IMG/VR virus record: IMGVR_UViG_3300046007_008174 | Location: 1 to 37,670 of that record | Length of the DNA: 37,670 nt | From: a virus | Strand: one strand, 5' to 3' | In this document: positions 3,409 through 37,053 of the stretch, piece by piece | How positions within the stretch are numbered: position 1 is the first letter of the stretch | Layout: every line of letters begins with the position of its first letter | Notes under the pieces: model-generated | Told to the model about the DNA's origin: nothing | Seen by the model: only the letters and a program-made list of their open reading frames with translations | Database searches by the model: none | Made by a program: the position numbers and the translations under genes

Positions 3409-3409
3409 T

Positions 3410-3922
3410 ATGAAAACATTAGAAGAAAGATTCGGTAATTGGTGGAGATTAGTTAAAAATGAGGTTGATAAACCTTATTTTAAAAAACTAGCTAACTATA
3501 TTGCTAAAAGAAGAAAAGAAATTGAAGTGTATCCTGTATCTGATAATGTGTTTAGGGCTTTTGAATTAACTAATCCCGATGATGTAACAGTTATCTGGAT
3601 TGGTTTAGACCCTTACAATAATTTCAGTGCATGGACAAATGCTCCTGTAGCAGACGGTTTATGTTTTAGTACAAATAGTCAAGATAGAACTCCTCCAAGT
3701 CTATCTAAGATACATCAAGCTATTGAAGAAGATTGTTATAATGATTTAAATTTAGAACTTGATAACAACTTAGAATATCTTGCTAAACAAGGTGTATTAT
3801 TACTAAATAGTTATTTAACTGTTGAGAAGTTTAATAGTCTATCTCATTCAAAAATAGGATGGGAAGAATTTAATGTTAGTATTCTTAATCAGTTATTTAA
3901 CGATAATTTGGTAAGAAACTGA
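3410..3922 (+). CDS. Family-1 uracil-DNA glycosylase, C-terminally truncated (170 aa)
   Basis: Resembles Ung. The water-activating loop reads GLDPYN (family: GQDPYH), followed by the pocket segment ADGLCFS, the Pro-rich loop PPSL, and the strand LLLNSYLTV with the uracil-recognising Asn, then SHSKIGWEEF. The chain stops about 15 residues after GWEEF. The final strand and the HPSPLS motif, which carries the catalytic histidine and the intercalating leucine, are therefore absent. No HPSP-like piece is present downstream in any plus-strand frame. Ung is usually about 220 aa. I chose the ATG at 3410 because upstream in-frame codons overlap the zinc-finger gene and are not Ung-like. It is the last gene of its strand, before a terminator. 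It may be impaired, work with a different histidine, or have a regulatory role. Confidence 0.85.
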   Translation: MKTLEERFGNWWRLVKNEVDKPYFKKLANYIAKRRKEIEVYPVSDNVFRAFELTNPDDVTVIWIGLDPYNNFSAWTNAPVADGLCFSTNSQDRTPPSLSKIHQAIEEDCYNDLNLELDNNLEYLAKQGVLLLNSYLTVEKFNSLSHSKIGWEEFNVSILNQLFNDNLVRN

Positions 3923-8422: not shown

Positions 8423-11400
8423 TTAGCATTTATTTTTTATTTTATGTAAAGCTGCTTCTGGAATATATCCTTCAACCAAAAGATCTTGAAATTCTTTAGA
8501 ATCTAATATTTCCTGATCAGTTTGAACGGTACTAACTTCAACTTTATTTGTAACAGTATAAAGAGTTTTACCAGACTTATCTACCTGAGCATCAGATATT
8601 TCAGTTTCAACCATATTTATTCTTGTATAATCAGCAAAGTTAACCATTCTAACCTTTTGTCCAACATTAAATTGTCTAGTGTCTAAGAATGTATCATTGT
8701 TAACATTTTTAACAGAAACTATAGGAACTCCTTTTTCAAAAGCTTTATCTATTTTATAGTATCCAACTAAAATATTTGGACTAAAAGCATAGCCTTTTTT
8801 ATCTTTAGTATCTATAATTCTATTATATCTTAATTGTTCTGAAGTTAAAGAAGCTTTGTCAATATAATACAGAGTATCAAAAACTTTTACAAAATAGCTA
8901 ACTTCAACATTTTCTTTATTTGGTATACGAATAACTCCTGTTGCTTCATCTTTTTCAAACTCATCTTTCTTTAAAAACTTAACATTGTCCATATTGTTTA
9001 TAGCAAATTGTAACAAGAAGTTTTCTTCTAATCTTTTTAACATGTCTTTATACATTACAGGATTAACACTAAGTCCATTCATGTAACGATTAAACTCTAG
9101 CATTAAAGGTTCATACATTTCAGAAGGTATAATAAGAGAATAATTAGTAACTCCAAATCTTAAACCTGATTTAATTACTGCATATTTTATAAATTCATAT
9201 TGTAATTTAGTAAATTTATTATCTGGTAAATCACTTAATTCTTTAAAAGCTAATTCATAAGTAATCATATCAGTTTGGTCCATATTTTTAGCAACATCAA
9301 ATCTCCATTCTCTAGTTTTATTGTTCCAATAAAGTTTCTTTAAAAATGCATTTTCAGGATACATTTTTTTAAGTTTTCTTACTTCGTCACTAAATCTATT
9401 TAAAAATGCATCCATACCAGTATAAGTAGTACCATCTTCTTTAGTATATTCTTCTTCGTTATTTACATCATTATCTATAATATAACCCTCTTTAGTTTTA
9501 TACTTTAATCCTGTCAAGAAGTAATTCATCAAACTTTCTCCTACAAGACTTTCATCTTGATAGGTTTTTTTAGTTCTTAAATTAGCCATTTTAACAGTAG
9601 CATCAGATGAAATAGGAACTTCATAACTTGCAAAAAGATTTTTAGCAAACTCTTGAATTACAGGGTTGTATTGGAAAAACAAGTATTCTGTTTTAGTTTT
9701 TAAAGTTAATAATACTTTAAATGCAGCTTTAATATGTGGAAGTTTTACAGGATCTACATTTTCAAATACCATTTGAGGAGTTGTTTTTGCTTCTTTATCT
9801 TTAGCATCATAGTTATATGATATAGTGTCTATTTCATCTACTACTGCTTTAACAGTAGGATAATCAATAGGCATACTCTTTAATATACTATAAGCCGTAA
9901 CACCTTTGGCAATAGAACCGTTTATTGATTCAGCTTTAAATATTAATTGTTTAGCTACAGCTAATTGAAACATCATTTGATCTTTATCAGCAAACAAATC
10001 TTTCTTTGTAGCTTCTTCAAGTTTTTCTGAAGTTATTTCAATTTTTTCAACTTGCTCCATAAGATCATCAAAATCTTCTTTAGTTACAAGTTGTAATCTT
10101 GATTTAATTTCATCTAGAAAATTATAGTATCCTTTGTTAAAACTTTTTGATGAACTAATATATTGAGATACAGGTTGTATCATTGTTCTAACAACATCTT
10201 TTAAAGGTATACCCATAGCTACCATAGATACTGCTGCTCCACCTAAATTATTAGTAAAACCTATAATAGGTAAAATTTGTTCTTTTACATTATCAATAGC
10301 AGCATTTACTAATGAGTCTATAGTTTCTGTAATAAGAGGTTGGTTTTTAACAGGTTTACCTTCTTTATCATAGTTAACAGTAATTTCTTTTCCTTTTTCT
10401 CTATAGTTAAAATCATCATACGTTTCACCATTTAAAGTAATATGATAGTTTTCTTTTAACTTAGGATTTTTACCGTCAACAGTAGACTGGAAATAATAAG
10501 CTATAACTTTAGCCATATTAGCATAAACACCTGTAAGTTTTGTACCGCTAAAATTATCTTTATGCATTAGCATTTGATCATTTAAATCGTACAAATTACG
10601 TTTACTAAATATTATAGCATTACGTTTTTCTTCCCATTCTTTTACAGCATTTTGATATAATTTTAAAGTAGTATAATTTTTATACTCAGGTTTAGGTTCA
10701 TTAAAACCTTTTAATCTTGCAACTAAATCAAAAGCAGATTCATCTTCAATACCCATTCCTTTAAACCTATCCATACTAATAGGTGACATCATTAAATCTT
10801 CATTAACTTTAGAAGTAGTTACTTTAATAAATGATTCAACAATTACATTTTTATAATATAATTCACGTAAATCATTTAACTGATCTAGTTTTTTTTCTAA
10901 TTGAATCCGTGTTGCATTATTTAAAGCTTCTCTTGCAATATTTACTTGAGCCCTTAAATTATTTCTTTCTGATTCAATCTTTTTAATAAAGTTTGGATCA
11001 ATATTAGTTCCTTTATAACCAACAGGAGTATTAGCTTTATACATTACATTACCTTCAGAATCTACTACATCTTTGTTGTAAAGTCCTCTACGCATTACAT
11101 AAAGTTTATCTACGTCATAGTCAGAACCGTGGAAGAATACAATTTCTTTAGGAGCAATAATTACGTTTTTGTTATTAGGATAAAATCCTACTACTTTAAT
11201 TGGAACAGCAGAGTGTAATTCTGTTGAAGGAATACGAAAACCTAATTGGGTATCAAAAAGTATTTTATCTCCAACTTTAAATTGATCTTTCCAAAAATCA
11301 GGTAAAATTACTTCAGCAAATCCATCAGCATCTCTCCATTTTAAATCACGTTTTACTAAATTACCATCTTTATCGGTAAATTCAGCAGTGCCATAAGCTG

Positions 11401-14400
11401 ATTGCAATACCAGCCCTCCTCCAGGAATACGTATACCAACAGTGGCTTTTGAGAAAATAGATGCCATGTTTGTAATTGCTTTCTTTACTAAGAAAGGTGT
11501 ATTTATTCCTAAATTACGATTTAAAATAAATTGGATTTGACGATTATCCCTTTCTTTAGACATTGAGTTAGCTATTTTACTTCTAACATTTTGTCTTTGT
11601 AATTCTACAATTTGAGGAGATTTTTCATCAAATCTTGAGCTCATTCCAAATGATACAAGTGTGTCATATAAACCATTGTTTATTAATGATGACATTGCAT
11701 CAAATAACTCATTTGCTAATTCATTATTTTTTAAACTAAAGTTAAAGAAATAACCTAGCTGAGTAGGAAAAGCTACTTCTTCATCTTGTACGTCATGTTC
11801 TGGATTAGACTGTATTCTATAGTTTTCATTTTGTAAAGTAAGTATAGACTCAGGATTAATGATTGCTGGTAAAGTACCATCTTCATTAGGTTCAACTATT
11901 GTTTTAGGTTTACCAACTTTAACAGCTGATTCAAAGACCATTTCATCTATTTCATTAGCTACAAGTATGTCTCTTACTTGTTTTAGTTTAGGGAACATAC
12001 TAACAAGTTCATCACTTAATTCAATACATGAATATTTTACAGCTCTTGGTATACCATTTTCGTCTATTTCAAAATGTACAGGTTTAATAACAGAACCAAA
12101 ATTAAATGCTTCACCAAATCCTTCTCTTAATTCTTTTGCTCTTTTTGGTGTCATAAAACCTTGAGCATCAGTTAGATCAAAATCTTTACCCCATATTTTA
12201 GAAAATGCAATAAAATCATCTCCTAAAATACCCTTAACATCTTGTACTACAAGTGATTTATAAGTTTTTGGTAAACCAAAGTTTTTAATATTTGTTACTA
12301 ATCCTTTATATCCTGTAGCAAATGCTATTGACATACGTTTAATTACATCAAATTCATTTTTATAAAACTGTTCTGGACCAGCCATTAGTTGATTTAACTG
12401 ATGAAGATTGATGTAAAAGTTAGCATAATATAAAGAGCTAAGTAGTTTTGTTGAAACATCAAGTTGCTGATCTATTGTTAATTCAGTTAATTTATCTTCT
12501 TGAGTTTCATTTAATTTATCTACTTCTACTTCAATAGCTTTAGTAATTTTTGATTCAGGAACATGATATTTAATAACTTCATTTAGTTTTACTTTATCTA
12601 TTGGTAATTCTAAAACTGTAGGAGCTAATTCTTCTCCACGTTCCATCATTTTATCAAATACCTGTTGAGCATATTCAGAATCAGATATTCCTTTTTTACG
12701 TTCTACAAGTTTACCAAAAGCATTGTTATCAGTATTGTATTTAACTTTAGAATTTTCAAAAGTTTTTACAAATTCATTTTCTTGTTTAATAATATCTAAA
12801 ATAGCTTGTTTAATTTTAGATTCATCTAAAAAGTCAATTTCAGCACCTATAATATTAGGTTTATTTGAAATTGTAACTACTTGCTGAACATATTTTTTAC
12901 CTTTATTATCGGAGTTATGTGCTATAAAAAAGTAATGGAAGTTTCTTGCAAACCAATCACTTTCTGTTTCATTTTTATATCTAGTACCTTCTTCAGTATA
13001 TTCTCCTGTAACACCATCATAATTAATATAGTTATGAATAGTATTAAGTCCTTTTATAAAAATATTATTTTTAAAATAAGGACTGTTTAAAAACTCAGGT
13101 TTCTTTACAAAACTTTTCTCAACAAAGCTTTGAAGAGTATTAACTGCTTGAGAACCTAACGTAAACACATAAGCTATTTTGTTATCTATACGTCTATAGT
13201 TTGAAGGACGTAACTCTCCAGCAGGTTTTATTAAATATGAAGCAAGATTATTTAAACGTGATCTTTGAGTTTCAAAAATGTTATTGATAATTTCATTTGG
13301 TTGTAAATTATCATTTTCAGCTTTTTGATATTGTTTAAATATTTCTTCTAATGCATCAAAATCTTTTATTTGTGCTCCATCAGGTACTTTAATTTCATAA
13401 CCTAAAAGATTATTTGTTATTTCAATAAAAGCATTATTACGTTTAGTTTGATCAGCAGCTTTAGTTAAAGATTTAGCTTGTTTAATTTTACCTAAAGCCC
13501 AAATAATACTGTTTTTACCGTCAACTTTATTTCTAGCATTAACAACTAAATTATCAAGTATGTTATTAATTTTTGTGGTTACTTCTACATCTACAATAGC
13601 ATTTCTTAAACTTTGATTAGGATTATTTCTTTTACCTGTATAGTAACCAAAATGTACATTTTGACGATACAGTGAAGAAGCTTGAGCATTTAGTTCTGTA
13701 AATAAATTTCTATTTTGATAACTTATAAAATCAGCTGAAATTTGTTTAAGACTTTTACCAGTAGTTTTAGAAATACGGTTAAAATAATTCCAGTTACTTT
13801 CACCTTCATTTCTTCTAATACCTTTTTTATTTTCAGGAAATACATAAATATTTTTAGTTGTAAATGAAGCATCTGTAGATTTAACTTGATCTTGAATACT
13901 ATCTGAATATGCTTGATCTATAACTTCTTTAATATACTTTTCAATAACAGAAACATCTTTATTATTAGAGTATACCCTTTTAAAATAATTAAATCGTTCA
14001 GTTAAAGATTTGGATATGTTTTCCCAACTAGATGTATCAAGTCCTGAAAAAGTTTCTAATGTTACAAGATAAGCAAATCTAGGATTAACTTGAGCTTGAT
14101 CACTAGTAAAAATCATTGACAAAAACTGTTTTACTTGTTGAGAAAGTTTTTGTTCATGATTTATTTCTTCAGAGTCTTTAATATCATCTGTCCAATCTGA
14201 ACCTATTATATCTTCAGTATTTTGATTAGCTTCATTATCTTTTGGTTTAGCTTCTGTTTTAAAAGTTAAACCATTAAACATGTCTAAAGAAAGTTTATTA
14301 AAAACTTTAGAATTACTTAAAGATTTTATTGCTTGAAAATATACAACATCATCTATTTTTTGATCTTTTAACTCTTCGTATTCAGCTAAAATAGATTCAT

Positions 14401-17400
14401 ATGTTAAACGTAATAATGTATTATCGTCTTCTGGTACAGTATCTGAAGAATTAATATTTGAATATTCTTTCTTTAAGTCATCAAATGTACCAAGTATAAT
14501 TGTTTCAGCTTCTCTAAATGCTGTTACTGAACCAAAGTCTTCAATAATTTCAGCATAAGACATTTTTCTATCACTTAAAGAAACTATTTCATTAAACAAT
14601 CCACTATCAATATTATTAAAGAAAGTATTAATATCAGGTATTAAATTAACACTCATACCTAACCATTTACGAATACGGGTAAATAATATATTGAAAAAGT
14701 TTGATAATGGTTTTTTGTTTCTCCATTCTTGATATTCTTCTGCTATTCTTTCTTCAAGAGATTCTAAATCAGTATTAGGATCTAATCCAAATTCTTCAAT
14801 AGCTTTTTGGTAAACTAATCTCTTTTGAGAATCGTTTAACATCATATCAAAGATTCTATGGAACAACTCATGTCTTGCTACATTTAAGTAAGCTTTGTTA
14901 AAATCGTCTTCTAACAAATAGATTATACCATTCTGATACAATCCCCAAGATTCTTTACCTTCATTTAATGCCATCATTTGAGCAGATGTAACAAATTTTA
15001 TTTCTTCATCTGTCAATGTTTTATCTATAGATTTTAGATAAGAAACTATTTCTTTTTTATTTAAACTTTCTCCTAATTCTCTTCTAACACTTTTTAGTAA
15101 TCGTTTAGTACGTCTGGAAGGTTTAACTAATTTTTTACCTCCTGTTGGAGCTTCTTCAATAGGTTGTTCTTTAACATTATTTATTGTAACAACAGCAGAT
15201 GCAGGAGAAACACTTTCAAGACTATCTTCAAAGAACATTTCATCAATCTGACTATTGTTTATATATGCATTAGTATAATTTATAACACCACTACCATAAG
15301 TACCGTCATTAGATTCTCTTGGTACTGGTACTTGTAAAGTACTTAAATTACCTTCACTATCTGTTTCAAATATAAAATCTAAATCTTCAGGGGTTAAAGA
15401 AGAATATACTAATCTTTTTAATAATTCAGCATCATCACTTGTAGCTGTCCTGTTATATTTTTCTTCAAACTCTTTTAATATTTTTTCTTGTTTATCAACA
15501 GAATATTTAGAAAATTCAGCAATAAATTCTTCATTACTAATATTATTATACCTTGGTAAAAGAGATTTACCATAAGTAATTTTCATTCCTTTTTTATCTG
15601 TTTTTGATACTCTAATTGTTAAACCATTTACAGCATTATTAGATCTTGCTATTAAATTAAATATATGTTGAGCTTTTCCCGGTTTTCTTCTAGTAACAGT
15701 TTCTAGTTCAGTAATATCCTGTACTATTTCATTACCATTTTTTAATTTTACAGTTACATTTGAACCGTCAATTTTTGTAACTTCACCTGATACAACCTTA
15801 TCATCTATTATAAAAGGATTAATTAAATTTTTAACTTTAACACCTACTATAACTTCTTTTTGTTTTTCAGTTAAAGGTTGATGTAATAAGTTATCTATTT
15901 CTTTACGTAAAGTAAGTATATCATTAGTTAACTTAATTTCAAGTCCTGTTTTAGTTTTTATTTTTTCAATTAATTTTGGTAAATAAACATCAGAAGATGA
16001 AATTATATCAGCTATATCATCTGCTTCATTTATACCAATATCATTAAACAGCTTTGTTATCTGTTTATACTTTTCAAGAAAACTCATTAAAGGTGTTAAA
16101 AACTCGGCATGAGTATTTACATTTAATCTTTTTCTTTTCAATGCAATTACTTGAGGTGCTACTTTTTTAGTACCTTCTTGTGTAGGATTTTCAATTAGTA
16201 CATAAGGAGCTCCTGCATATATTACTCCGGTAAAACCTTGATTCTTTAACTCAGTTATTTCTTTTTCAGTAAAAATTCTAATTTTTGCCTGAGATGAATC
16301 AAAAGTTGGAGTTTTAGTAAAAAATCCTTTAAACTTATTTAAAATATTTTCCCAACTAAATGGCTGACTTACAGATGAATAAGTATATGTTAATTTAGAT
16401 GCTTGTTTAACTTTACCTTCAGCTAAAACTATAGGTGTACCAACAGGTACTAAATAACCTGTATTAATATCAGTATTAAATTTAGTTAGTTGACCTTTTT
16501 TAGCTTCTATAAGTTTAGCATATATTTTTTCTTTACCTTTTGGAGGATCATTTAATTCTGCTTCAGATAACATCCCTACTTCAATATAACCATCTGGTCT
16601 TTCAACATATACACCAATAATAGGATATTTTTGAGAAGATAATGTTGGTATATAAACTACTTTTTCTCCGGCTGTAATTGGTTCAGTTAAAACATTTCCA
16701 TCAGCATCTCTTAATCCGATAATATTTTTATTTTTTACATAAAGTAATTTAACTTCACCATCTTCAACTACAACTTCTACTTGAGGTTCTGGTTCTAAAG
16801 GATCAGGTATTATTTCTTCATCTTCTGTAAAAAATTCTTCATCTTCATCTTCAGGATCAGGTTGATCAGAAGGTGCATCTGTTGGAGGAGGAGTCGTTGG
16901 TATAACTGTTGCAGGTTTTTGAGCAGTAGGTACAAAATTACTATCTTGTTGTTTCATTTCTGCTTCCCTATCTTCTTGGAATTTTTTACGTCCTTCTTTA
17001 ATAGCTTCTATGTTTTTACTAGTTAAAGCGTTAACATTAGGATCATTAACATGTTTAATATTTAATCCTTGAACAAAAATGTAATTTGTAGCTCTTGATA
17101 AAGCTGTATACATAGCCTGGTTAAAAGGCATTATACCTGGTATTCTATTAGGATTAATATAAACATATACCTCATCTATAGTTCTACCTTGTACATCTAC
17201 ATAAGATACTACTTCAACACCAAGATTTTTAGCTTTCCATTCAGATACATCATCAGGATGAACAATAACTGCTCTGGTTTTTCCGTCAGATAAGTTTTTA
17301 GTTTTTAATTCTTTTTCAATAGCATCAGAAGCCATTGATCCATTAGCACCTAAAGTATTTTCAGGATTTGATGTAAAGTATATTTCTTCTTTACGTAAAT

Positions 17401-20400
17401 CTTTTGGTTGATCAATAAACAAATCCTGAGCATCAACAACGGCTGATACATTAGTACGATACCTAATAGTTAATGGTGTAATAACAGTATATCCACCAAA
17501 ATAAGTATCTAATATATCTTCTAAAGGAATAATAGTATTACCAAATCTAGCAGCATTATCAGTAATCTGATTAGGATCACCTAAACCTACTAGTTTTAAT
17601 TTTTTACCAGTTCTTGCATTATAATTATCTATTTCTTCAATTAGTTTTCTTACTTTAATACCTTCTATAGCATTTATTTCATCTACAATTAATAACTTTA
17701 TTTTATCAGATAAAGTACCTGATTGTAATGCTACTATCAATTCATCTAAAGATGGAGATTTACCTGTTTCTAAAGAATCATTAATAGCTTTAGATGAAAA
17801 CTCATTATGCCCTGTAGCAAATACTTCATCTGTATTAAGTTTAGATAGTTTAAAAAACCATTTAAGAACTATGTTAGTTTTACCAGTACCAGCATATCCT
17901 TTTAAATATGCCATTACTTCAGAACCACTTCTAGCTGTTGTAGATAAAAAGAATCTTAGTAAATCTCTTATTGCAAAAAGTTGTTGAGCAGATGGTACTA
18001 TATATTTATCATCTTTAGATAACTGATTTTCATTTACCGTTTCTACGACAGGATTGTATTCAGAATTTAAAGCATCAAAAAACTCTAAATATCCTAAAAC
18101 TTTTTCATGTAAATCTATTAATCTTTCAAGTTTATCAGTAGGTATTCTAGTATCAGGTTTTTCTGCAAGAATGTATTCTTTAAATTTCTGAAAATCAAAG
18201 TCTTTTAAAAAGTCCTTTTTAATTGGAGTACCACCTTTTTTAGATAAGTATTGTACAATTTTAGCAAAAGCTAATTTAGGATTTTTAGGATATACTTGAT
18301 TAATATAAGAAACTAATTCTTTTAAAGAAGTATTAGATTGTAATGAAGTAACTACACCAACAAATTCATTTGTAACTTTATTTGCTTCGTTTAATAGAAA
18401 TAATTTTTGTTCATCACTTAATAAACCTTTTAGCTCATATAATACATTATTAATGTATCCAATTCTTTCAATTGGTGACAAAGATTCAAGATCTTTTTCA
18501 ATATCTTTACCTATTAATGATTTAGCTAGTTCATATATTTCTTCAATTACAACACCTTTATCGTTTAAACCAATAGATGTTTTTGCTTGATTTGATTTAG
18601 AAATAGTTATTTTTTCTTGTTGCTTTTCTTTATCAGCAAGACGTTCTTTAACAACAGAAATTAATTCTTCTGTTTTAGCTAGTAAGTCTTCATATTCTTT
18701 AATAACCCCATTATAATCTGAATCAGCTTTTTCTTTAAGAACCTTAATCATATTGGTAAGATTCTTCTTTACTTGTTCTAATTGAGGTAAATTTACATAT
18801 TCTTCAGTATTACTAGCATTAAAAACAGCTGAAGAAGATTGATTTGTTAATGGTGCTAAAAGACTTTCCTTAACAGTTTTCTTATTTACATTTCTTTTAT
18901 TCTCAATAGTTAAAGAATTAATTTTATCTTTTGCTTGAGAATATGTTTCGGCAACAGTATTAATGTCTTCTTCACCTTTTAAAATTCTATCAGCTGTAGC
19001 TAATTGCTCTGGTGTAAATATAGAAGTATCACCACCATAAGTTAAAGCATCTGCTGCTTCCATGATTTTACCTAACTCATCTAACTTAGTATCTATCTGA
19101 GATTCAAGTAGTTGTTTTGTTTTATCTGTAACAGATATATTTTCAGAAAGTAAATCATTTAATATTTCAGGAGCTTCTTCTCCATCAGCTAATTTTTCTT
19201 CAATACCTTTTTCAAAAAATTCAGCATCTATATTAGCTCCTTTCATTTTAAGCTCTTGACCAAACAATTGAGAGTTTTCAAAATTTGTAAACTGTTCAAC
19301 AGTTGTATTCTCAGGATTAAAAGACTTTACTTTTTTAGTTATTGATTTTTTATAGTCTTTATTATAATATGTCTGTCCTTTATTAATATCAGATAGTTTA
19401 GCATATTCATTCATAAATTTTTCTTCTACTTGTTCAAGTTCAGAAATTTTTAAATTTAAATATGCTAACCTTCTTTGAGAATCTAAACTAGCTAAAGGAT
19501 CAGATTCTAATTGAGATTTTTCAGCAGTAAGTTTATTTTTTTCAGTTTGTACACTAGAAAGTGTTGCACCTATATTATATAATTCGTTTTTACGTTTTCT
19601 AAAGTTTGCAGCTCCTTCTTTACTAGTATCTTTAGTTAATAAATTTGCATCTAATCTTGCTGCAAGTTTTGTAAACTGAGCTACTTTATTTTTCATTGAA
19701 GCTATAGTTTGATCTTTAGTAGAAGGATCAAAACCTTCTTTTAAGAAATCTTCATCTGAAAGATTTTCTAGATATTTAATTTTATTATTTAAAAGATTTT
19801 CAGTTCCAGTATCGTAATGCATTTTTACCCATTTAGCTAAAGCAGAATCTTTTGCTAATTGAGCTAATACATCATTACCGTTTTCTTCAGCTAGTGTTGC
19901 AATATCATCAAGATATTCAATATGTTCTCTATCAGCTAAAACAGCATTAGCTTTTGTTTGATCAATTACAGGATTACCATTACCATCAAGTTTGATACGT
20001 TGTTTAACTACAGGTTTTCCATCTACTTCTTCTGTATAGTCTTCTCTTTCAAATACATCGTTATTAAATCTTAAAGCAGCTCTTCCTAAAATTGAAGCTT
20101 CTTTAGCAGCCTTTTTAGCTTCTTTATTACGATTGTAATCTATCATTCCTGATCTTCCTCCCGATAATCCACCAATTATACTTCCAAGTAACATTGATTT
20201 TTTACCTTCTTCTGTGCTAAAGTTATTTATACCTTCATTAAATATTCCAGTATAAGTATCAATATCAAAAAGACTTGAGTCAGGGTTATTTTCAAAAAAG
20301 TTTGAAACTGCTAATTGAAGGTTTTCTTCAAAAATACCTTCTCTTGCCATACCTTTAGCAGCTTCTAATAAAGTACTTCCTGTTTTACCAGCAGCAAATT

Positions 20401-21436
20401 TTTCAAAACCTTTTATTGTAGCACCAAGATAAGGTACTTTACTTGTTGGTATTTGTTTACCAAAAACAGATATATCTCCTGTAGGTATTTTCTCAATAGT
20501 TTGTAAACCTTCTGAAGTTAATCCTTTTGGAGCTGTAGCTAATCTACCTGCATTTTTCATTAAACTCTTCATTTCTAAAAAGTTAGGTCCTGCAAGTAAA
20601 GCCATGTTCGTAGCAAAAGTTTTAGCAGCAGCCGGAGCTACTTCTCTATTTATTTCAAGTTGTTGTTCAGGATTTAATGTATCAAAATTTACCCCATATC
20701 TTTCTAGAGCCTTATCTTCTCTTAGTTTATCTCTAACATCTTTAGCTTCAAACATAGATTCAGAAGCTGTTTGTAAAGCTGTAGCTGTAATCCAATCTGT
20801 TGTTTTTGCAACTTTGGCAGCATTGGCTACAGGTCTTCCTATTGCAGATAGTCCTCTAACTAATCCAGCCCCAGAACCTATAGATGATACACCCATACCT
20901 GTTAAATAAGCTGAAGCTAAAAAAGCTCCTGCATCAACAGCATCTCCTGCCCAAAAATCAGCATCTAATAAATTATTAAAAACACTAACCTTATTAGCTG
21001 CTCTGTCTTCTAAACTATTATATAAAGGTAATGATTCTTCTAAATCTTTTTCTAGATCAGTAGCTAAAACCGATAATCCATTGTCAGCTGCACCTGCAAT
21101 CCATGCAGCTAAACCTTCACCATAATTTTCAGATTTATTATCTATACCAACTAAACCACCTACAAATCCAGCTCCAGCAGCTGTTTTAGTTAGAGTTTTA
21201 CCTGCTAATCTTGTTAAACCAATTCCGGTTTTTTCCCAAAATCCTTGATTTCTACTTCTTCTGTTTTCTACTTCTTCATAAATACTTTGTCCTAAGTCTT
21301 TTGAAGAAAAAGGTATATCTTGTTCTTCAGCAGCACCAAAACCAATATTAATATTTTCAGGTGTAGGTTTTACTAAAAATTTACTCTTTTGAGTATTTTG
21401 ATTATAATCTGCTAATAATTCTTCTAGTGTAGGCAT
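8423..21436 (-). CDS. Giant multidomain virion RNA polymerase with SF1 helicase and metallopeptidase-like domain (4337 aa)
   Basis: One uninterrupted 13-kb frame. Residues about 70-230 are Ala/Gly-rich and hydrophobic; 440-1010 are long helices. An SF1 helicase spans about 1150-1460: Walker A GYAGTGKT (K1186), VDEIN (D1252), GDPNQ (about 1286), LTIRYRTN and YTALSRA (1443). A Pro/acidic linker lies at about 1511-1554, and an SH3-like stretch near 1890. HELFH (2189-2193) with a later EERIAEEY suggests a zincin. The polymerase occupies about 3040-3620. Its first barrel segment has TDAQG (D3090), KP (K3118), KYS (K3134) and ESAVKVG (from 3169). The second has RIPSTELH (R3401) and DYDVD (3439-3443), matching the RAPTLH...DFDGD order of bacterial beta-prime. 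This resembles the YonO-like virion polymerases of crAss-like phages, which transcribe early genes after ejection. It is placed between the 678- and 1450-aa genes with one-base gaps. The helicase-peptidase-polymerase fusion is unusual. Whether the chain is processed is unknown. Confidence 0.93.
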   Translation of the reverse strand: MPTLEELLADYNQNTQKSKFLVKPTPENINIGFGAAEEQDIPFSSKDLGQSIYEEVENRRSRNQGFWEKTGIGLTRLAGKTLTKTAAGAGFVGGLVGIDNKSENYGEGLAAWIAGAADNGLSVLATDLEKDLEESLPLYNSLEDRAANKVSVFNNLLDADFWAGDAVDAGAFLASAYLTGMGVSSIGSGAGLVRGLSAIGRPVANAAKVAKTTDWITATALQTASESMFEAKDVRDKLREDKALERYGVNFDTLNPEQQLEINREVAPAAAKTFATNMALLAGPNFLEMKSLMKNAGRLATAPKGLTSEGLQTIEKIPTGDISVFGKQIPTSKVPYLGATIKGFEKFAAGKTGSTLLEAAKGMAREGIFEENLQLAVSNFFENNPDSSLFDIDTYTGIFNEGINNFSTEEGKKSMLLGSIIGGLSGGRSGMIDYNRNKEAKKAAKEASILGRAALRFNNDVFEREDYTEEVDGKPVVKQRIKLDGNGNPVIDQTKANAVLADREHIEYLDDIATLAEENGNDVLAQLAKDSALAKWVKMHYDTGTENLLNNKIKYLENLSDEDFLKEGFDPSTKDQTIASMKNKVAQFTKLAARLDANLLTKDTSKEGAANFRKRKNELYNIGATLSSVQTEKNKLTAEKSQLESDPLASLDSQRRLAYLNLKISELEQVEEKFMNEYAKLSDINKGQTYYNKDYKKSITKKVKSFNPENTTVEQFTNFENSQLFGQELKMKGANIDAEFFEKGIEEKLADGEEAPEILNDLLSENISVTDKTKQLLESQIDTKLDELGKIMEAADALTYGGDTSIFTPEQLATADRILKGEEDINTVAETYSQAKDKINSLTIENKRNVNKKTVKESLLAPLTNQSSSAVFNASNTEEYVNLPQLEQVKKNLTNMIKVLKEKADSDYNGVIKEYEDLLAKTEELISVVKERLADKEKQQEKITISKSNQAKTSIGLNDKGVVIEEIYELAKSLIGKDIEKDLESLSPIERIGYINNVLYELKGLLSDEQKLFLLNEANKVTNEFVGVVTSLQSNTSLKELVSYINQVYPKNPKLAFAKIVQYLSKKGGTPIKKDFLKDFDFQKFKEYILAEKPDTRIPTDKLERLIDLHEKVLGYLEFFDALNSEYNPVVETVNENQLSKDDKYIVPSAQQLFAIRDLLRFFLSTTARSGSEVMAYLKGYAGTGKTNIVLKWFFKLSKLNTDEVFATGHNEFSSKAINDSLETGKSPSLDELIVALQSGTLSDKIKLLIVDEINAIEGIKVRKLIEEIDNYNARTGKKLKLVGLGDPNQITDNAARFGNTIIPLEDILDTYFGGYTVITPLTIRYRTNVSAVVDAQDLFIDQPKDLRKEEIYFTSNPENTLGANGSMASDAIEKELKTKNLSDGKTRAVIVHPDDVSEWKAKNLGVEVVSYVDVQGRTIDEVYVYINPNRIPGIMPFNQAMYTALSRATNYIFVQGLNIKHVNDPNVNALTSKNIEAIKEGRKKFQEDREAEMKQQDSNFVPTAQKPATVIPTTPPPTDAPSDQPDPEDEDEEFFTEDEEIIPDPLEPEPQVEVVVEDGEVKLLYVKNKNIIGLRDADGNVLTEPITAGEKVVYIPTLSSQKYPIIGVYVERPDGYIEVGMLSEAELNDPPKGKEKIYAKLIEAKKGQLTKFNTDINTGYLVPVGTPIVLAEGKVKQASKLTYTYSSVSQPFSWENILNKFKGFFTKTPTFDSSQAKIRIFTEKEITELKNQGFTGVIYAGAPYVLIENPTQEGTKKVAPQVIALKRKRLNVNTHAEFLTPLMSFLEKYKQITKLFNDIGINEADDIADIISSSDVYLPKLIEKIKTKTGLEIKLTNDILTLRKEIDNLLHQPLTEKQKEVIVGVKVKNLINPFIIDDKVVSGEVTKIDGSNVTVKLKNGNEIVQDITELETVTRRKPGKAQHIFNLIARSNNAVNGLTIRVSKTDKKGMKITYGKSLLPRYNNISNEEFIAEFSKYSVDKQEKILKEFEEKYNRTATSDDAELLKRLVYSSLTPEDLDFIFETDSEGNLSTLQVPVPRESNDGTYGSGVINYTNAYINNSQIDEMFFEDSLESVSPASAVVTINNVKEQPIEEAPTGGKKLVKPSRRTKRLLKSVRRELGESLNKKEIVSYLKSIDKTLTDEEIKFVTSAQMMALNEGKESWGLYQNGIIYLLEDDFNKAYLNVARHELFHRIFDMMLNDSQKRLVYQKAIEEFGLDPNTDLESLEERIAEEYQEWRNKKPLSNFFNILFTRIRKWLGMSVNLIPDINTFFNNIDSGLFNEIVSLSDRKMSYAEIIEDFGSVTAFREAETIILGTFDDLKKEYSNINSSDTVPEDDNTLLRLTYESILAEYEELKDQKIDDVVYFQAIKSLSNSKVFNKLSLDMFNGLTFKTEAKPKDNEANQNTEDIIGSDWTDDIKDSEEINHEQKLSQQVKQFLSMIFTSDQAQVNPRFAYLVTLETFSGLDTSSWENISKSLTERFNYFKRVYSNNKDVSVIEKYIKEVIDQAYSDSIQDQVKSTDASFTTKNIYVFPENKKGIRRNEGESNWNYFNRISKTTGKSLKQISADFISYQNRNLFTELNAQASSLYRQNVHFGYYTGKRNNPNQSLRNAIVDVEVTTKINNILDNLVVNARNKVDGKNSIIWALGKIKQAKSLTKAADQTKRNNAFIEITNNLLGYEIKVPDGAQIKDFDALEEIFKQYQKAENDNLQPNEIINNIFETQRSRLNNLASYLIKPAGELRPSNYRRIDNKIAYVFTLGSQAVNTLQSFVEKSFVKKPEFLNSPYFKNNIFIKGLNTIHNYINYDGVTGEYTEEGTRYKNETESDWFARNFHYFFIAHNSDNKGKKYVQQVVTISNKPNIIGAEIDFLDESKIKQAILDIIKQENEFVKTFENSKVKYNTDNNAFGKLVERKKGISDSEYAQQVFDKMMERGEELAPTVLELPIDKVKLNEVIKYHVPESKITKAIEVEVDKLNETQEDKLTELTIDQQLDVSTKLLSSLYYANFYINLHQLNQLMAGPEQFYKNEFDVIKRMSIAFATGYKGLVTNIKNFGLPKTYKSLVVQDVKGILGDDFIAFSKIWGKDFDLTDAQGFMTPKRAKELREGFGEAFNFGSVIKPVHFEIDENGIPRAVKYSCIELSDELVSMFPKLKQVRDILVANEIDEMVFESAVKVGKPKTIVEPNEDGTLPAIINPESILTLQNENYRIQSNPEHDVQDEEVAFPTQLGYFFNFSLKNNELANELFDAMSSLINNGLYDTLVSFGMSSRFDEKSPQIVELQRQNVRSKIANSMSKERDNRQIQFILNRNLGINTPFLVKKAITNMASIFSKATVGIRIPGGGLVLQSAYGTAEFTDKDGNLVKRDLKWRDADGFAEVILPDFWKDQFKVGDKILFDTQLGFRIPSTELHSAVPIKVVGFYPNNKNVIIAPKEIVFFHGSDYDVDKLYVMRRGLYNKDVVDSEGNVMYKANTPVGYKGTNIDPNFIKKIESERNNLRAQVNIAREALNNATRIQLEKKLDQLNDLRELYYKNVIVESFIKVTTSKVNEDLMMSPISMDRFKGMGIEDESAFDLVARLKGFNEPKPEYKNYTTLKLYQNAVKEWEEKRNAIIFSKRNLYDLNDQMLMHKDNFSGTKLTGVYANMAKVIAYYFQSTVDGKNPKLKENYHITLNGETYDDFNYREKGKEITVNYDKEGKPVKNQPLITETIDSLVNAAIDNVKEQILPIIGFTNNLGGAAVSMVAMGIPLKDVVRTMIQPVSQYISSSKSFNKGYYNFLDEIKSRLQLVTKEDFDDLMEQVEKIEITSEKLEEATKKDLFADKDQMMFQLAVAKQLIFKAESINGSIAKGVTAYSILKSMPIDYPTVKAVVDEIDTISYNYDAKDKEAKTTPQMVFENVDPVKLPHIKAAFKVLLTLKTKTEYLFFQYNPVIQEFAKNLFASYEVPISSDATVKMANLRTKKTYQDESLVGESLMNYFLTGLKYKTKEGYIIDNDVNNEEEYTKEDGTTYTGMDAFLNRFSDEVRKLKKMYPENAFLKKLYWNNKTREWRFDVAKNMDQTDMITYELAFKELSDLPDNKFTKLQYEFIKYAVIKSGLRFGVTNYSLIIPSEMYEPLMLEFNRYMNGLSVNPVMYKDMLKRLEENFLLQFAINNMDNVKFLKKDEFEKDEATGVIRIPNKENVEVSYFVKVFDTLYYIDKASLTSEQLRYNRIIDTKDKKGYAFSPNILVGYYKIDKAFEKGVPIVSVKNVNNDTFLDTRQFNVGQKVRMVNFADYTRINMVETEISDAQVDKSGKTLYTVTNKVEVSTVQTDQEILDSKEFQDLLVEGYIPEAALHKIKNKC

Positions 21437-32300: not shown

Positions 32301-34195
32301 CCTTGATTATAAACATTACCAGGATGATCATCAGGTATTTCATACAACATATTTGTTAAACCCATTGCATGAATAGCAAAATCGTATTGAGCACTTTCTT
32401 TATACAAATCTTGAGCATTTCCACAACCAAAAGAATTATATAAAGTAGATAAGGTAGCTGTAGAACTTCCTTGATCATGAAATCCATGAGCAGGTGCTAA
32501 CATACCTTGACCTAATATAGTCCTGTTATTTATATCTCTTTTTACATAGTATAATTTATAACCTATAACTTTATCAGCTAATTCATCAGGTATTACTATA
32601 TTATGTAACTTTACTCCTAAAATATTTACTTCACCATAATCACCACCAGTATAATTCTTGTGCATTTTTATATCATGCTGAAAAGGATCAGGAAATTTAT
32701 GGTGTCTTACATTATCATTTCTAAAAGTATCTATAACAGTACCGGTTTCATTTTTAACATCCCAGTTTTCATTATCAGGATACTTTTCATTTTGGTTTTC
32801 CCAATAACCCATATTATCTGTAACAGTGCTATCATCAGCAGTATCAACTGCTTGATAAACTTTAGCTCCTGTATTAACATTATATATTTGACCTCCAGGA
32901 GTTATATCTGTTGAACCACCTCCGTTATAATAACTAAGATCACTTATTAAATTTACAGGATCAGTTTCACTACCTGTCCAAATACCTAATGTAATAGATT
33001 TACTTTGTCTACCAGGTATATGATAAGCTCTAGTTTCATATTTAACATTACTATCTTCTATAAGAAAAGATATGGCAAAACCATATACTTCATCCCACAT
33101 AAAAGATTTATTGTAAAAAGTATTTACAGCATCTTTATAACCACCAGTTAAACCATTAGTTACATCTAATTCTTTAGATACCCATTGAATACCTATGTTA
33201 TTTACATAAGGTTGTAGGTTTAATTGATCAAATGCTCTAAGATGACCTTTATAAAGAACATCATCTAAAGATACAATAGTTAATGCTGATTTATATAAAG
33301 CTGTATTAATTATAATAGAATCTACTGTTACCTCTTCTGAACTAACTAAAGAAGGAATAGCTATATCAATATTACTTCCTGTATTAGCATAAGTAGCATA
33401 TTCATATGCTTTTAATGATTGATTAATTTTAGCTATTACATATATCTTTACAGATTGAAAAGATGTATCTAGATTAGCAGCAGGAATAGTAAGCTGGATA
33501 GATTTATTAGAAATAGTTCCTGCTGGAGCACCCCAATTATCAGCTGCTGATATTTGAATGGGATTTGAAATTGATAAAGAATGTGTTTCATTGTTGTCTG
33601 CTATATATACAGGTACTATAAAATAAACACCTGTTTCTAAACTACCTCCTGTTTCTACATCAACTAAATCAATATTAATTTCACTATTGATTCTGTAACC
33701 AATCATTTGTTGAATCTCATTAGCAACAGCTAATCTTAATTGATTATCAATAGTTACTTGAGGTCTAGTTAGATTTAACCATTTGTCGGTATTTTTACCA
33801 TCTACCCAATATACAATTAAGTCTCCGTTTAATCCTACTTTAAAGCTACCTTGAATTAAATCTTCTACACTAAAACCAAAACTAATATTAATTGAAGTAT
33901 TATCTCTAAGAATAGGTTTATAAATATCATTATCTATAATACCTATTTCAGAAGTATAATCAGAATTATTATTTACAACAGAAAATACAGCTACCTTATT
34001 AGCAATAAGTGGAATAAACCCAATCGGTTCTAAATCAGATTGAGTCAAAACATTGTATTCATATATAATACGGAAACCATACTCATTATGAATTGAGCTG
34101 GTCTCCTTACTGAATACTGTATTTTTATTGAACTGAGAAGAGTTTTGTGGTTTGTTTAACTCATTCCCGTCATTCCACATTTTAATAGGTATCAT
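29324..34195 (-). CDS. Tail stabilisation / muzzle-like protein (1623 aa)
   Basis: A very large, beta-rich, Tyr/Asn-rich protein that by size, composition and order (directly after the tail tubular gene) fits the crAss-like tail 'stabilisation' or muzzle protein, which forms the distal tail around the exit channel. The N-terminus (MIPIKMWNDGNELN) has no signal peptide. Two inserted modules can be recognised. At about 870-920 there is a PGMQVFGVGIPSGT beta-domain, often seen in phage tail proteins. At about 1193-1232 there is a chitin-binding-type or carbohydrate-binding module: W1193, then YNQYDIVKYNGNLWRA, then P and W1229. This suggests glycan contact at the cell surface. It overlaps its neighbours by four bases upstream and one base downstream. 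A receptor-binding role for the module is inferred. Confidence 0.85.
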   Translation of the reverse strand: MIPIKMWNDGNELNKPQNSSQFNKNTVFSKETSSIHNEYGFRIIYEYNVLTQSDLEPIGFIPLIANKVAVFSVVNNNSDYTSEIGIIDNDIYKPILRDNTSINISFGFSVEDLIQGSFKVGLNGDLIVYWVDGKNTDKWLNLTRPQVTIDNQLRLAVANEIQQMIGYRINSEINIDLVDVETGGSLETGVYFIVPVYIADNNETHSLSISNPIQISAADNWGAPAGTISNKSIQLTIPAANLDTSFQSVKIYVIAKINQSLKAYEYATYANTGSNIDIAIPSLVSSEEVTVDSIIINTALYKSALTIVSLDDVLYKGHLRAFDQLNLQPYVNNIGIQWVSKELDVTNGLTGGYKDAVNTFYNKSFMWDEVYGFAISFLIEDSNVKYETRAYHIPGRQSKSITLGIWTGSETDPVNLISDLSYYNGGGSTDITPGGQIYNVNTGAKVYQAVDTADDSTVTDNMGYWENQNEKYPDNENWDVKNETGTVIDTFRNDNVRHHKFPDPFQHDIKMHKNYTGGDYGEVNILGVKLHNIVIPDELADKVIGYKLYYVKRDINNRTILGQGMLAPAHGFHDQGSSTATLSTLYNSFGCGNAQDLYKESAQYDFAIHAMGLTNMLYEIPDDHPGNVYNQGINFPYSGSPNTPNYEYANTAKTLFTLTSGYAVIRPFDLMSQNVSVNSAAYIKNLFRIKSRYDLSYAEGSSYVVGTPQNFSYGFTFVPDINFYGIDRINESQIINPTYNLIRKLDVKNYIENNQSAAGLGFSGNILTKNFTKGILTQFTNKLLNYNIPSARNGNTQGQDLFIVNLENPPANGAVYGTGYASPYLSNICAYKEDLFVGFENQILGYTGQSYGAAKILGGIQFGSDIISNVSSIKGVKPGMQVFGVGIPSGTIVSIVNPTSIQISNPATATTTVYFTLYDQEDTFGGDTFTGWYGERTICDFSAIAENAGKNRTLAILRGLNYYICQSTSNTQLRHTGPNANETFFPYTTANNMLAQAPDNNNYYGYNIDYSSINDIKQPLIGTFDINTYEILFTNRIIRSAKNNPELDSDNYLIYQAGNVIDVGMELGKIENLDNYVNRLIIQLENGIMYTVGREQLDVGNAEAYIGAGDIFLAKPKSVVSGQYGGTIGRFNTTVTPYGLLYADPNLGNVYAFTGEELHEISKEGFERFFKDHLPFKLPKQLNNLNYNFVPEWDSITTYNQYDIVKYNGNLWRAKQTSVGVNPVEGTDWTNEPLPEYDIRSTVYKQGLGIVAGYDPKFLRYILRKKDYSYIDTNAFYQGIFGTNLIDNYVDGVTLITYNNTLGIYYNVGEGTPPENGIQIGTTGYWYVPIDLDDYPEDFKSESFTISYYPEVKGWVSWHDYEPKLFTTQEQALYSSNGDIYKHNIIESPFFYDTDPISFETEPLFTINEKTRLASVQTTVDDKNFAKISAGQVVPASVPIYDETFDSYFVYDSYQISKASTNLVPLSNTRNAEGIWNFNDFRDYTANQDDQLLTYSSVWEYDLNTLNIDNNKHWSKLKKFTDYWYATRLKKQIDNFEVLTVNVQLLSVAGNVGVINQIGLSRNYVYKMNNSYFVVKSISNLTVSSEIVFLNTPPTLGFYTVNVFIPKRFALMKTSPTIFKNYR

Positions 34196-34926
34196 AGACG
34201 ATGGTTACGAAACTTTTGTTGTAAAATTTCAGGTTGATTCAATGTAGCAAAGAAGTTTTGTTCAGCATTAATCTCAGGAATTAACCTTACCCAGCTATTC
34301 TTAAATGCTATCAGTTTAGGTTTATCCATAAATGCTAAATCAGTTTCAGCCTGACCACAATATTTTAACCAGTTAGCTTCGGCTTTTGAATAACCCAATT
34401 CTCTGTTAGGATGCTCAAATCCACCTAACATTAGGTTTCTTAAACATAACCAAAATAAAGCTTCTTTTACAGTTTCCTTGTTAGGAATCTGAGGAAAGCC
34501 TTCATTATCAGTTACATACTTAACATAAGTAATACAGATATATTCTTCATCTGGTACATTAGTTTGTAACCAGTTAGGATTTACAATATATGAATAAGGT
34601 AGATCTTTACCTATACCTTCATTAATACAATCTGTACAATGCAAATCATAGTTAAATGCTTGAGACCCATAAGGTAACCATTTACTATCATGAGCTACTG
34701 ATTCTATAAGATATAGATTACAAGGAATTTCTACTTTACCATTACTAACCTGAAAGTTCTGAGATATTCTTTCCATTGCAGGAAGACATCCTATTTGTTC
34801 TAAACCGTACCCAATCCATTCAATAACATTACCAAGAAACCTATCTGAATCTTGAGATATTGTATTTCCTAATAGACTGAATACACGTTCAACAACTTGT
34901 TTAGCTGAGACAGTAGTGTAATTCAT
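34192..34926 (-). CDS. Tail tubular / ring protein (244 aa)
   Basis: Matches the conserved crAss-like tail tubular (gp4/gp11-type) protein by size, position and a helical N-terminal half (VVERVFSLLGNTISQD, then VIEWIGYGLEQIGC) followed by a beta domain. Such proteins form a ring between the portal side and the distal tail. It has no signal peptide, membrane segment or enzyme motif. Its stop overlaps the start of the muzzle gene in an ATGA arrangement, and it follows the HU-like gene after 12 bases. A CAAAGATA just upstream of the ATG (TATCTTTG on the coding strand) fits a -7 box, but no convincing -33 element is present. Confidence 0.75.
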   Translation of the reverse strand: MNYTTVSAKQVVERVFSLLGNTISQDSDRFLGNVIEWIGYGLEQIGCLPAMERISQNFQVSNGKVEIPCNLYLIESVAHDSKWLPYGSQAFNYDLHCTDCINEGIGKDLPYSYIVNPNWLQTNVPDEEYICITYVKYVTDNEGFPQIPNKETVKEALFWLCLRNLMLGGFEHPNRELGYSKAEANWLKYCGQAETDLAFMDKPKLIAFKNSWVRLIPEINAEQNFFATLNQPEILQQKFRNHRL

Positions 34927-34938
34927 ATAGCAAAGATA

Positions 34939-35436
34939 TTATTTTTTCAAGGGAAAACGTAAATAATTTATGCTGTTTTCCAAGAGATAATCACAGAGTT
35001 TATTAATAGCCCCTGATTTTGAAGTTGTACCGTTAGTTCTAGATGGTTTAAAAGTATAAGCTTTAAATCCTTTTAATTTACGAATACCTTTTCTATGGAT
35101 AAATTTACATTTATATTCACGGATTGAATAAAAGAACTTATCAGAATCTAATTTACCTTCTTTTCTTAATTGTTTAGTTTTACCCCAATTTACATTGTAA
35201 AGAGGTTGGTTATTTGGTCCTAATCTAGGTTTAGCTTTAAACCTCATAACTGTAATGTAACCTAAACTATGACTTAGTTTTTCAGTATTACCCTCAATTA
35301 CAGAATCAACTATAGCTTCATTTAAAGTTTTCCAAATATCTTTGTATATTGAAAATGAGGCTTTTAAGGGTAACTTATCTTTATATTCGTTATATAACCC
35401 TTTAAGGGTTATCGTCTGCTGCGTTGTTTTCTTCAT
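34939..35436 (-). CDS. HU/IHF-like structural protein (165 aa)
   Basis: Corresponds to the IHF-like protein found in the tail gene block of crAss-like phages. The middle part follows the HU/IHF layout: a helix LNEAIVDSVIEGN, then a glycine turn in SLGYITVMRF and a basic AKPRLGPNNQP arm, comparable to the GFG.F.v..R.AR.GRNP region of HU. The rest is strongly basic (Lys/Arg-rich), with a C-terminal tail ending in LRFPLKK. It lies between the ring protein and the tail tubular gene and overlaps the former by 35 bases, so a virion role, perhaps DNA binding near the portal or tail, is more likely than gene regulation. This is an inference from context. Confidence 0.72.
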   Translation of the reverse strand: MKKTTQQTITLKGLYNEYKDKLPLKASFSIYKDIWKTLNEAIVDSVIEGNTEKLSHSLGYITVMRFKAKPRLGPNNQPLYNVNWGKTKQLRKEGKLDSDKFFYSIREYKCKFIHRKGIRKLKGFKAYTFKPSRTNGTTSKSGAINKLCDYLLENSINYLRFPLKK

Positions 35437-36058
35437 CAGGAATTAATGATAGCATATATTTCAATTCTGTTCCCATCACATCTCTGGTAATCAAATCTAA
35501 AATGTCCTGTGGTAGAGGATATTCCATATCATCTGTATAGCATACACCATTTTCACATTTAAAAGCTTTAGCATCTCTTGGATCAACCAAGGCAGCTCTA
35601 ACATTTAATGCAGCAACGTCTTTTGTATATAATCTGTTATTTAAATAGTAAACTGGTTCTGTAAGTCTTGGGTATCTTGTATGACCTACAAAATCAAATC
35701 TTTCAGGAAGTATAATTTCAAACCTTTTGGTTTTGTTAATAGCTGATATTTTTAAACCGTAAGCTAACTTCCAACGTAATACAGGAGGTATTTCTGTAAC
35801 AGTTCTAAATACAGTACAACCTGTTTCAAAATGACAACATTCAGCTGAGTCTACTTCTTCCATTTCAAGACAACCTAGATCCTGGTATATGGTATCCATA
35901 TTAAACCAGTTTTTAGTTTGGTCTTGACGTAAGTATTGGGCTCTTTTATAATTAAGTATAAAATACAACTGAGAATAAGAAGGAAGACTATCATCACTGA
36001 TACGTCCTGCTTCCATCAAGTTTCTCCAGTTATAAATTATTTCTTTTGCTGATGCCAT
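35402..36058 (-). CDS. Conserved head-tail ring/adaptor protein (218 aa)
   Basis: A soluble protein with a helical N-terminus (KEIIYNWRNLMEAGRISDD) and a beta-rich remainder, resembling the conserved ring or adaptor protein encoded just before the HU-like gene in crAss-like phages. Four cysteines occur (CLEMEEVDSAECC, ETGC) and two more in CENGVCY, so metal binding or close packing is possible, although no standard motif is formed. The C-terminus is acidic (DEENNAADDNP). It overlaps the spanin-like gene upstream by 29 bases and the HU-like gene downstream by 35. These long overlaps indicate coupled translation in one late message. The exact ring position in the tail cannot be read from sequence. 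Confidence 0.68.
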   Translation of the reverse strand: MASAKEIIYNWRNLMEAGRISDDSLPSYSQLYFILNYKRAQYLRQDQTKNWFNMDTIYQDLGCLEMEEVDSAECCHFETGCTVFRTVTEIPPVLRWKLAYGLKISAINKTKRFEIILPERFDFVGHTRYPRLTEPVYYLNNRLYTKDVAALNVRAALVDPRDAKAFKCENGVCYTDDMEYPLPQDILDLITRDVMGTELKYMLSLIPDEENNAADDNP

Positions 36059-36869: not shown

Positions 36870-37053
36870 TTTTCTTCTGATTATACAATTTTATACAAAA
36901 ATAAACTATTACTGCTAATAGTAATAGATTTATTAGAATATTTACAGATACTAAAGTAAAATCTACTTTTTCAAAATCTAATACATAACTAGATTTGATT
37001 GTTTCGTTTTCTATTATAGTACCGTCTAATTTGTTGTTTTCAATGCCAGGCAT
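36859..37053 (-). CDS. Single-pass small membrane protein (64 aa)
   Basis: A soluble, mostly polar N-terminal 30 residues is followed by one membrane segment (SVNILINLLLLAVIVYFCIKLY) and a short basic tail (NQKKNGL), which predicts N-out, C-in topology. The ATG overlaps the endolysin stop by one base (TAATG). Small one-pass proteins beside an endolysin are often holin- or antiholin-like accessory lysis proteins; no family motif supports a firm call. Confidence 0.6.
   Translation of the reverse strand: MPGIENNKLDGTIIENETIKSSYVLDFEKVDFTLVSVNILINLLLLAVIVYFCIKLYNQKKNGL

Follow-up and report, generated by a model that had tools for sequence, protein, structure and literature searches.

Crassviral transcription proteins provide the closest described systems for the locus examined here. 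The polymerase of the crAss-like phage phi14:2 performs DNA-dependent RNA synthesis that is resistant to rifampicin, and crAss-like polymerase genes reach ~6000 amino acids (aa), as sections of a review state (PMC10136315); virions of phage crAss001 contain homologous proteins, according to the available portion of PMC10172136. An excerpt of a published comparison (PMC10770324) places crAss-like enzymes in a group with RNA interference (RNAi) and phage single-chain polymerases, and states that two-barrel families share little sequence outside the DxDxD region. We analyzed a 37,670-base viral sequence (IMG/VR record IMGVR_UViG_3300046007_008174; hereafter the window) whose minus strand carries P0001, an uninterrupted 4337-aa open reading frame (ORF; positions 8423..21436) in which blastp and further comparisons delineate a gp67-like half, a zincin, and a gp66-like RNA polymerase. 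Its C-terminal part almost certainly holds the catalytic core of a DNA-dependent RNA polymerase that is carried in the virion, has both barrels in a single chain, and is of the crAss-like (phi14:2 gp66) kind. This is a known enzyme type rather than a new class of polymerase, and it belongs to a divergent, unnamed lineage.

A first-pass annotation made from the sequence had described the segment 12319-10579 (minus strand; aa 3040-3620 of P0001) as a two-barrel polymerase whose catalytic region follows the order of bacterial beta-prime. The motifs it listed all occur at the residues it gave. The first, beta-like barrel region (~aa 3058-3222, 11771..12265, minus strand, delimited by model strands and conservation) contains TDAQG starting at residue 3089, Lys3118, Lys3134, and ESAVKVG starting at residue 3169, which includes Lys3173. 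The second, beta-prime-like barrel region (~aa 3334-3466, 11039..11437, minus strand) was placed from the model, in which alignments to Pol I, Pol II, and beta-prime begin at model residues 375-388. It contains RIPSTELH (aa 3401-3408, 11213..11236) and DYDVD (aa 3439-3443, 11108..11122), both on the minus strand, the latter supplying the candidate metal-binding aspartates; DYDVD is the only occurrence of D[FY]DxD in the 4337 residues. Arg3401 lies 38 residues before Asp3439, as compared with 35 between Arg425 and Asp460 of E. coli K-12 rpoC (RAPTLH...DFDGD), and both of the spacings that had been claimed are reproduced. When P0001 was shuffled 2000 times, two of the shuffles placed an R.P pair comparably far ahead of D[FY]DxD, so the pairing in P0001 exceeds chance.

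To place the protein we relied on a family alignment. A scan of viral_contigs with a five-sequence alignment identified 438 relatives among the 599 stretches kept, and the best 80 were used; removal of near-duplicates and of rows lacking a single readable motif left 67 rows, the window included. Searched against the PDB, the 67-row profile matches phi14:2 gp66 (6vr4) with E 4e-225 over 977 profile positions and pairs Lys3118 with the lysine of the phi14:2 PLKG stretch. No other RNA polymerase appears up to E 10, the remaining PDB entries being short coiled-coil, designed, or chimeric proteins. A tblastn search with aa 2813-3619 against 50,697 phage records returned 50 matches, the best of them phi14:2 g066, annotated as “Catalytic RNA polymerase subunit” (25% identity, E 5e-11); among the 40 of these 50 matches that were listed, most are named or annotated as crAss-like.

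The predicted fold points the same way. An AlphaFold2 model of aa 2950-3949, built from the 67-row alignment, has a pLDDT of 88.5 and a pTM of 0.88, and Foldseek relates it to 6vr4 (E 3e-26) and to the RNAi polymerase QDE-1 (E 8e-6). With VIA-align, aa 2974-3938 superimpose on residues 843-1835 of 6vr4 with Z 18.7 over 799 residues, followed by QDE-1 (Z 15.6 over 459 residues), RDR2 (Z 14.9), P32 gp64 (Z 10.8), and P23-45 gp96 (Z 10.0); in a viral structure library, the best named matches of this core model are crassviral. Both barrel regions of the predicted model align with 6vr4 and with QDE-1. Profile match, predicted fold, and motif spacing agree on an RNA polymerase that has two barrels in one chain and R...DxDxD in beta-prime order. 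QDE-1 and RDR2 likewise carry two barrels in one chain, but they are cellular RNAi enzymes with no giant fusion or phage context and no sequence match up to E 10. P23-45 gp96 is, in the text available from PMC10770324, a giant two-barrel virion polymerase with a metallopeptidase domain; unlike P0001, it has a DFDGD motif, its polymerase lies N-terminal to a tail tape measure, and crassviral genes are absent.

Several results weigh against the identification. A phmmer search of the whole P0001 ORF against the PDB yields nothing up to E 1, and the N-terminal 2156 residues have no match in annotated phages at E 1e-5. Comparison of the 67-row profile by hhalign with single E. coli sequences, a weak test, is not significant for either rpoC (E 0.64) or rpoB (E 0.67). 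In addition, DYDVD deviates from DFDxD, which Drobysheva et al. (2021) reportedly gave as the usual crAss-like motif. Apart from these points, a PHROGs search of P0001 gives no match, and a single-protein scan of viral_contigs with P0001 recovers the same virus only.

The rpoB and rpoC comparisons also bear on whether P0001 instead arose from the cellular, multisubunit (beta/beta-prime) clade by fusion of the two subunits, the origin that its beta-then-beta-prime barrel order and the 38- versus 35-residue R...DxDxD spacing might suggest; the best rpoC columns in the hhalign result pair DYDVD with DFDGD. The scores argue otherwise. Whereas the core model reaches Z 18.7 with gp66 and 15.6 with QDE-1, Pol I, Pol II, and bacterial beta-prime score 7.3-7.6 and align only from model residue 375-388 onward, on the second-barrel side. 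E. coli beta and beta-prime are separate subunits with a glycine in the motif and no significant sequence match to P0001, and the excerpted comparison in PMC10770324 puts RNAi polymerases, phage single-chain polymerases, and the crAss-like enzymes together, a grouping that the weak rpoB/rpoC similarity and the RNAi-like fold of our model fit. We regard descent from the multisubunit clade as extremely improbable. The resemblance to beta-prime that had been proposed holds for motif order and spacing but is not significant in sequence (E 0.64). In fold, beta-prime reaches a Z of only ~7.3, on the second-barrel side, and the model resembles phi14:2 gp66 and the eukaryotic RNAi polymerases much more closely.

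Conservation among the relatives is consistent with an active enzyme. The search pattern by which the relatives were collected includes the catalytic motif, which biases the aspartate counts; the R.P stretch and the lysines lie outside the pattern. The three catalytic aspartates, Arg3401, Pro3403, Ser3409, and Lys3173 are invariant in 67 of 67 rows, Lys3134 is present in 66, Lys3118 in 65, and Asp3090 in 63; position 3408 is histidine in 36. This conservation supports the three lysines as candidate first-barrel residues, as the annotation had proposed on sequence grounds for nucleotide contacts. The R.P-to-DxDxD distance is 37-42 residues in all 50 rows used for the main tree, two of which contain one extra R.P. 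Phi14:2 gp66 shares these features with P0001, namely a single chain with both barrels, a G-S-D-[FY]-D-[VI]-D-K signature, R.P 37-42 residues upstream, conserved lysines, and an alignable N-terminal region. In three relatives (L054, L023, and L049), the polymerase ORF is in pieces around the core, a pattern expected of introns or inteins; introns or inteins have been reported in crAss-like phages (PMC7886860).

The motif variation also permits two further readings to be assessed. Because the third position of DYDVD is valine rather than glycine, the first-pass annotation had suggested a distinct subgroup. We read the motif in 23 named crassviral phages, a set outside which bajarodcaudo virus 1 and cr108_1, lacking a readable motif, fall. 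The residue between the second and third aspartates is valine or isoleucine in 22 of the 23. Each of these two residues is found in both halves of the tree as well as in named phages, and valine was rejected as a subgroup marker. The rarer feature of the P0001 motif is its tyrosine in place of phenylalanine, found in 9 of the 67 rows, which are dispersed in the tree, and in phage Fpv1. With valine and isoleucine throughout the tree and tyrosine scattered across it, neither letter marks a single subgroup; valine or isoleucine is the crassviral rule. The single named crassvirus of the 23 read with glycine is Azobacteroides phage ProJPt-Bp1 (L108), whose motif is DNDGD. The annotation thus identified the enzyme correctly, misinterpreted the valine, and set the protein too close to beta-prime.

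The tyrosine and the variable His3408 could also be read as signs of decay, P0001 then being an inactive polymerase relic that is ejected solely as a structural protein; a second zincin in the same gene block that has lost its first histidine (EEFLH in P0002, below) would fit such a picture. Yet the three aspartates, Arg3401, Ser3409, and Lys3173 are invariant, the ORF is intact across 4337 codons, the three nearest relatives (56-64% identical) all retain DYDVD, and the tyrosine recurs in Fpv1 and at several other loci. A relic is therefore a very unlikely reading, and an active crassviral polymerase remains the one we adopt.

P0001 belongs to a deeply separated group. A 50-row tree unites the window with three relatives (L009-L011) in a four-row clade with support 100/100, nested in a 29-row metagenomic clade, also at 100/100, that has a stem length of 1.0 and excludes all 13 named phages sampled. 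The phages sampled lie outside the Zeta and Epsilon crAss-like groups. The clade persists (17 rows, support 99) in a quick 43-row tree with more named rows, among them a single Crevaviridae row and two Oafivirinae rows, Oafivirinae being part of Darmviridae in the NCBI taxonomy; the nearest named row there is the Crevaviridae phage cr127_1, on a long branch, with a value of 94. P0001 does not fall inside the sampled rows of Steigviridae, Intestiviridae, Suoliviridae, Crevaviridae, or Darmviridae in the RNA polymerase tree. When the clade members L014 and L021 were compared with the phage collection, all matches were below 60% identity, the best among those listed being 33%. The trees and these distant matches indicate a lineage without a named member among the phages sampled. 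Our literature search, whose coverage largely excluded subscription journals, listed no paper on this metagenomic clade or on a zincin at the joint described below, which leaves novelty unproven. A scan of genome_contigs yielded 25 loci, mostly contigs binned in metagenome-assembled genomes. One locus (L133) lies on a 228,862-base contig of the cultured isolate Spirosoma oryzae DSM 28354 and encodes a crassviral-type polymerase ORF (FGVRIPSQDKHS...GSDFDIDKLY), possibly within an integrated element.

P0001 is a fusion of gp67-like and gp66-like proteins whose joint carries a predicted zincin with an HExxH motif. In phi14:2, gp66 stands alone as a 2180-aa protein and lacks a zincin, whereas the gp66-like RNA polymerase module of P0001 (aa 2295-4337, 8423..14554, from the 6vr4 alignments and the profile) is fused behind a gp67-like half (~aa 1-2100, 15137..21436, from blastp; its downstream limit is approximate), both on the minus strand. 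By blastp, aa 134-413 match phi14:2 gp67 (E 3e-11) and aa 2978-3448 match gp66 (E 7e-14). P0001 further differs from gp66 in its ~25% identity, in DYDVD versus DFDID, and in having, besides the zincin, a superfamily 1 helicase-like domain (aa 1172-1452, 17081..17923, minus strand) with the Walker A sequence GYAGTGKT at aa 1180, which Pfam assigns to Viral_helicase1 (E 3e-5, above cut-off) and AAA_30 (E 2e-5, below cut-off). A membrane anchor in the gp67-like half, considered as a means of tethering to the ejection channel, was rejected, as a hydropathy scan contains no peak of at least 1.3 before aa 1233. Fused proteins of this type are known in Suoliviridae (cr50_1 gp059, of 4774 aa, and cr1_1, cr4_1, cr6_1, cr53_1, and cr114_1), where gp67-like and gp66-like parts share one ORF of 4.3-4.8 thousand aa and, in cr50_1, a zincin also lies at the joint; they nevertheless form a separate tree branch. 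The P-loop domain, in the gp67-like half of P0001 but behind the polymerase (aa 4275) in cr50_1 gp059, seems to have moved between lineages.

The predicted zincin-type metallopeptidase domain (aa 2125-2278, 14603..15064, minus strand) was defined by conservation and modeling and contains HELFH at aa 2189-2193 (14858-14872, minus strand). His2189, Glu2190, and His2193 are invariant in all 35 aligned rows, which were selected for the presence of HExxH at that place, and Glu2229, conserved in at least 90%, may act as the third zinc ligand, judging from the alignment. In a model of aa 2059-2968 (pLDDT 77.7), Pro-Pro endopeptidases superimpose on residues 67-220 with Z 6.2-7.2, under the Z 8 mark, and aa 2295-2968 align with residues 95-855 of 6vr4 at Z 10.2. 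Since the zincin part aligns with peptidases and the remainder with 6vr4, the domain appears to be an addition ahead of the gp66-like module. Foldseek of the zincin model against the PDB gives no match at E up to 0.001, and Pfam peptidase families do not match the window's zincin row.

The position of this domain is recurrent. Among 35 non-redundant ORFs with more than 2200 aa before DxDxD, 32 have an HExxH 1150-1700 residues upstream of it, and the other three have one 1988-2057 residues before it. Where the ORF also extends more than 1700 aa past DxDxD, a second HExxH occurs 880-1320 residues downstream in 12 of 15 cases, at the gp66/gp65 joint. In total, HExxH is found 52 times in the 38,379 residues of the joint windows, which were set after the data were seen, and 4 times in 207,284 residues elsewhere. 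Five relatives with a separate gp66 (L030, L038, L040, L044, and L053) keep the zincin near the gp66 N-terminus, and in crAss001 and cr11_1 HExxH lies at the end of the gene preceding the polymerase gene; its presence at the boundary in both fused and separate genes indicates that the domain belongs there regardless of fusion. The joint zincin is not universal, since phi14:2 lacks HExxH in gp67 and gp66 and has one in gp65. GenBank annotation already includes the label “RNAP associated protein fused to zincin protease”. Eight relatives (L012, L015, L016, L020, L026, L028, L033, and L039) have single ORFs of ~6050 to >6590 aa that appear to be gp67+gp66+gp65 fusions, the L039 ORF measuring at least 6596 aa.

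What the zincin does can be read in two ways. It could serve the polymerase subunit as a fixed domain, for structure or for ejection, rather than as a processing enzyme, as its retention near the N-terminus of the five separate gp66 proteins suggests. Phage N4 virion polymerase contains a zincin HExxH (PMC12633501, in the portion available), and a metallopeptidase domain is also part of the polymerase protein that P23-45 joins to its tape measure, per the text of PMC10770324 cited above; both fit the same reading, and together they suggest that the pairing of virion polymerases with metallopeptidase-type domains may be more general. On the other hand, conservation of HExxH together with the candidate third ligand would suggest catalysis, and the location of the motif on the preceding gene in crAss001 and cr11_1 means that the zincin is not bound to the polymerase chain. 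We give the fixed-domain reading slightly less than an even chance. Alternatively, crassviral giant transcription proteins might be self-cutting or self-releasing polyproteins, in which the gp67/gp66 zincin, plus the gp66/gp65 one where that part is fused, frees or activates the polymerase on ejection; we put this forward tentatively, as a rather unlikely proposal.

The neighboring genes identify the virus. Beside P0001 lies P0002 (4069..8421, minus strand), a 1450-aa gp65-like RNA polymerase-associated protein that matches crAss001 gp49 by blastp (E 5e-7). Its zincin motif is degenerate, the first histidine being replaced by glutamate (EEFLH, aa 182-186, 7864-7878), as it is in L009 and L011, whereas L021 retains HEFLH at this site. 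Also on the minus strand are a crassvirus muzzle protein (P0005, 29324..34195; Pfam crAss_MUZ PF25731, E 2e-21, above cut-off), crassvirus tail ring protein 1 (34192..34926; CrAss_Ring_1 PF24228, E 3e-31, above cut-off), and a homolog of the phi14:2 virion protein gp74 (35402..36058; blastp E 4e-12). P0002, muzzle, ring 1, and virion genes adjoin the polymerase ORF in phi14:2 order. In the contigs of 20 relatives chosen from the 80 loci, several of them fragments, the phi14:2 major capsid protein is represented in 11 and the portal in 14, the L009 contig included. The muzzle, ring, and virion genes and the capsid and portal genes of relatives show that the virus is a crassvirus, a member of Crassvirales.

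Three other ORFs in the window lie outside these subjects. A uracil-DNA glycosylase-like ORF (3344-3922, recognized by motif, with no Pfam match) is shortened in the window at 3903/3909; the L008 contig, 99.99% identical, has ~193 extra bases there and an intact ORF, which reflects either a strain variant or an assembly difference. Positions 2126-2995 encode a radical SAM protein resembling spore photoproduct lyase (PF20903, E 5e-21), unusual near a phage transcription block, and 37053-37505 a Peptidase_M15_3 protein (E 2e-14), a likely lysis enzyme.

By analogy with phi14:2 and crAss001, the working of P0001 can be outlined as follows. The predicted double-psi barrels in the C-terminal half of the 4337-aa chain would form the active site, with Asp3439, Asp3441, and Asp3443 of the second barrel holding the catalytic magnesium, Arg3401 taking the place of beta-prime Arg425, and the first barrel supplying Lys3118, Lys3134, and Lys3173. 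P0001 and the gp65-like P0002 would be packed together in the capsid. P0001 would then leave by way of the muzzle along with the DNA and refold in the host, where it would transcribe early genes without the host polymerase; such packaging, ejection, promoter use, and activity are most likely, given the two phages from which we infer them. The zincin at the gp67/gp66 joint might cut or loosen the fused chain, which is a guess.

Taken together, these results fix the identity of P0001 as a crassviral virion RNA polymerase and reveal that metagenomes contain a deep branch of such polymerases of which no member in our sample is named or cultured. The most divergent relatives of phi14:2 gp66 can help to test whether phage and RNAi polymerases are linked, as has been proposed. 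The zincin most deserves experimental attention: because it is conserved at the joint, it offers a straightforward way to ask how chains of 4,300 to >6,000 residues mature or are threaded into the host. If these proteins do prove to be self-releasing polyproteins, metallopeptidases would repeatedly accompany the RNA polymerases that phages inject, those of N4 and P23-45 among them.

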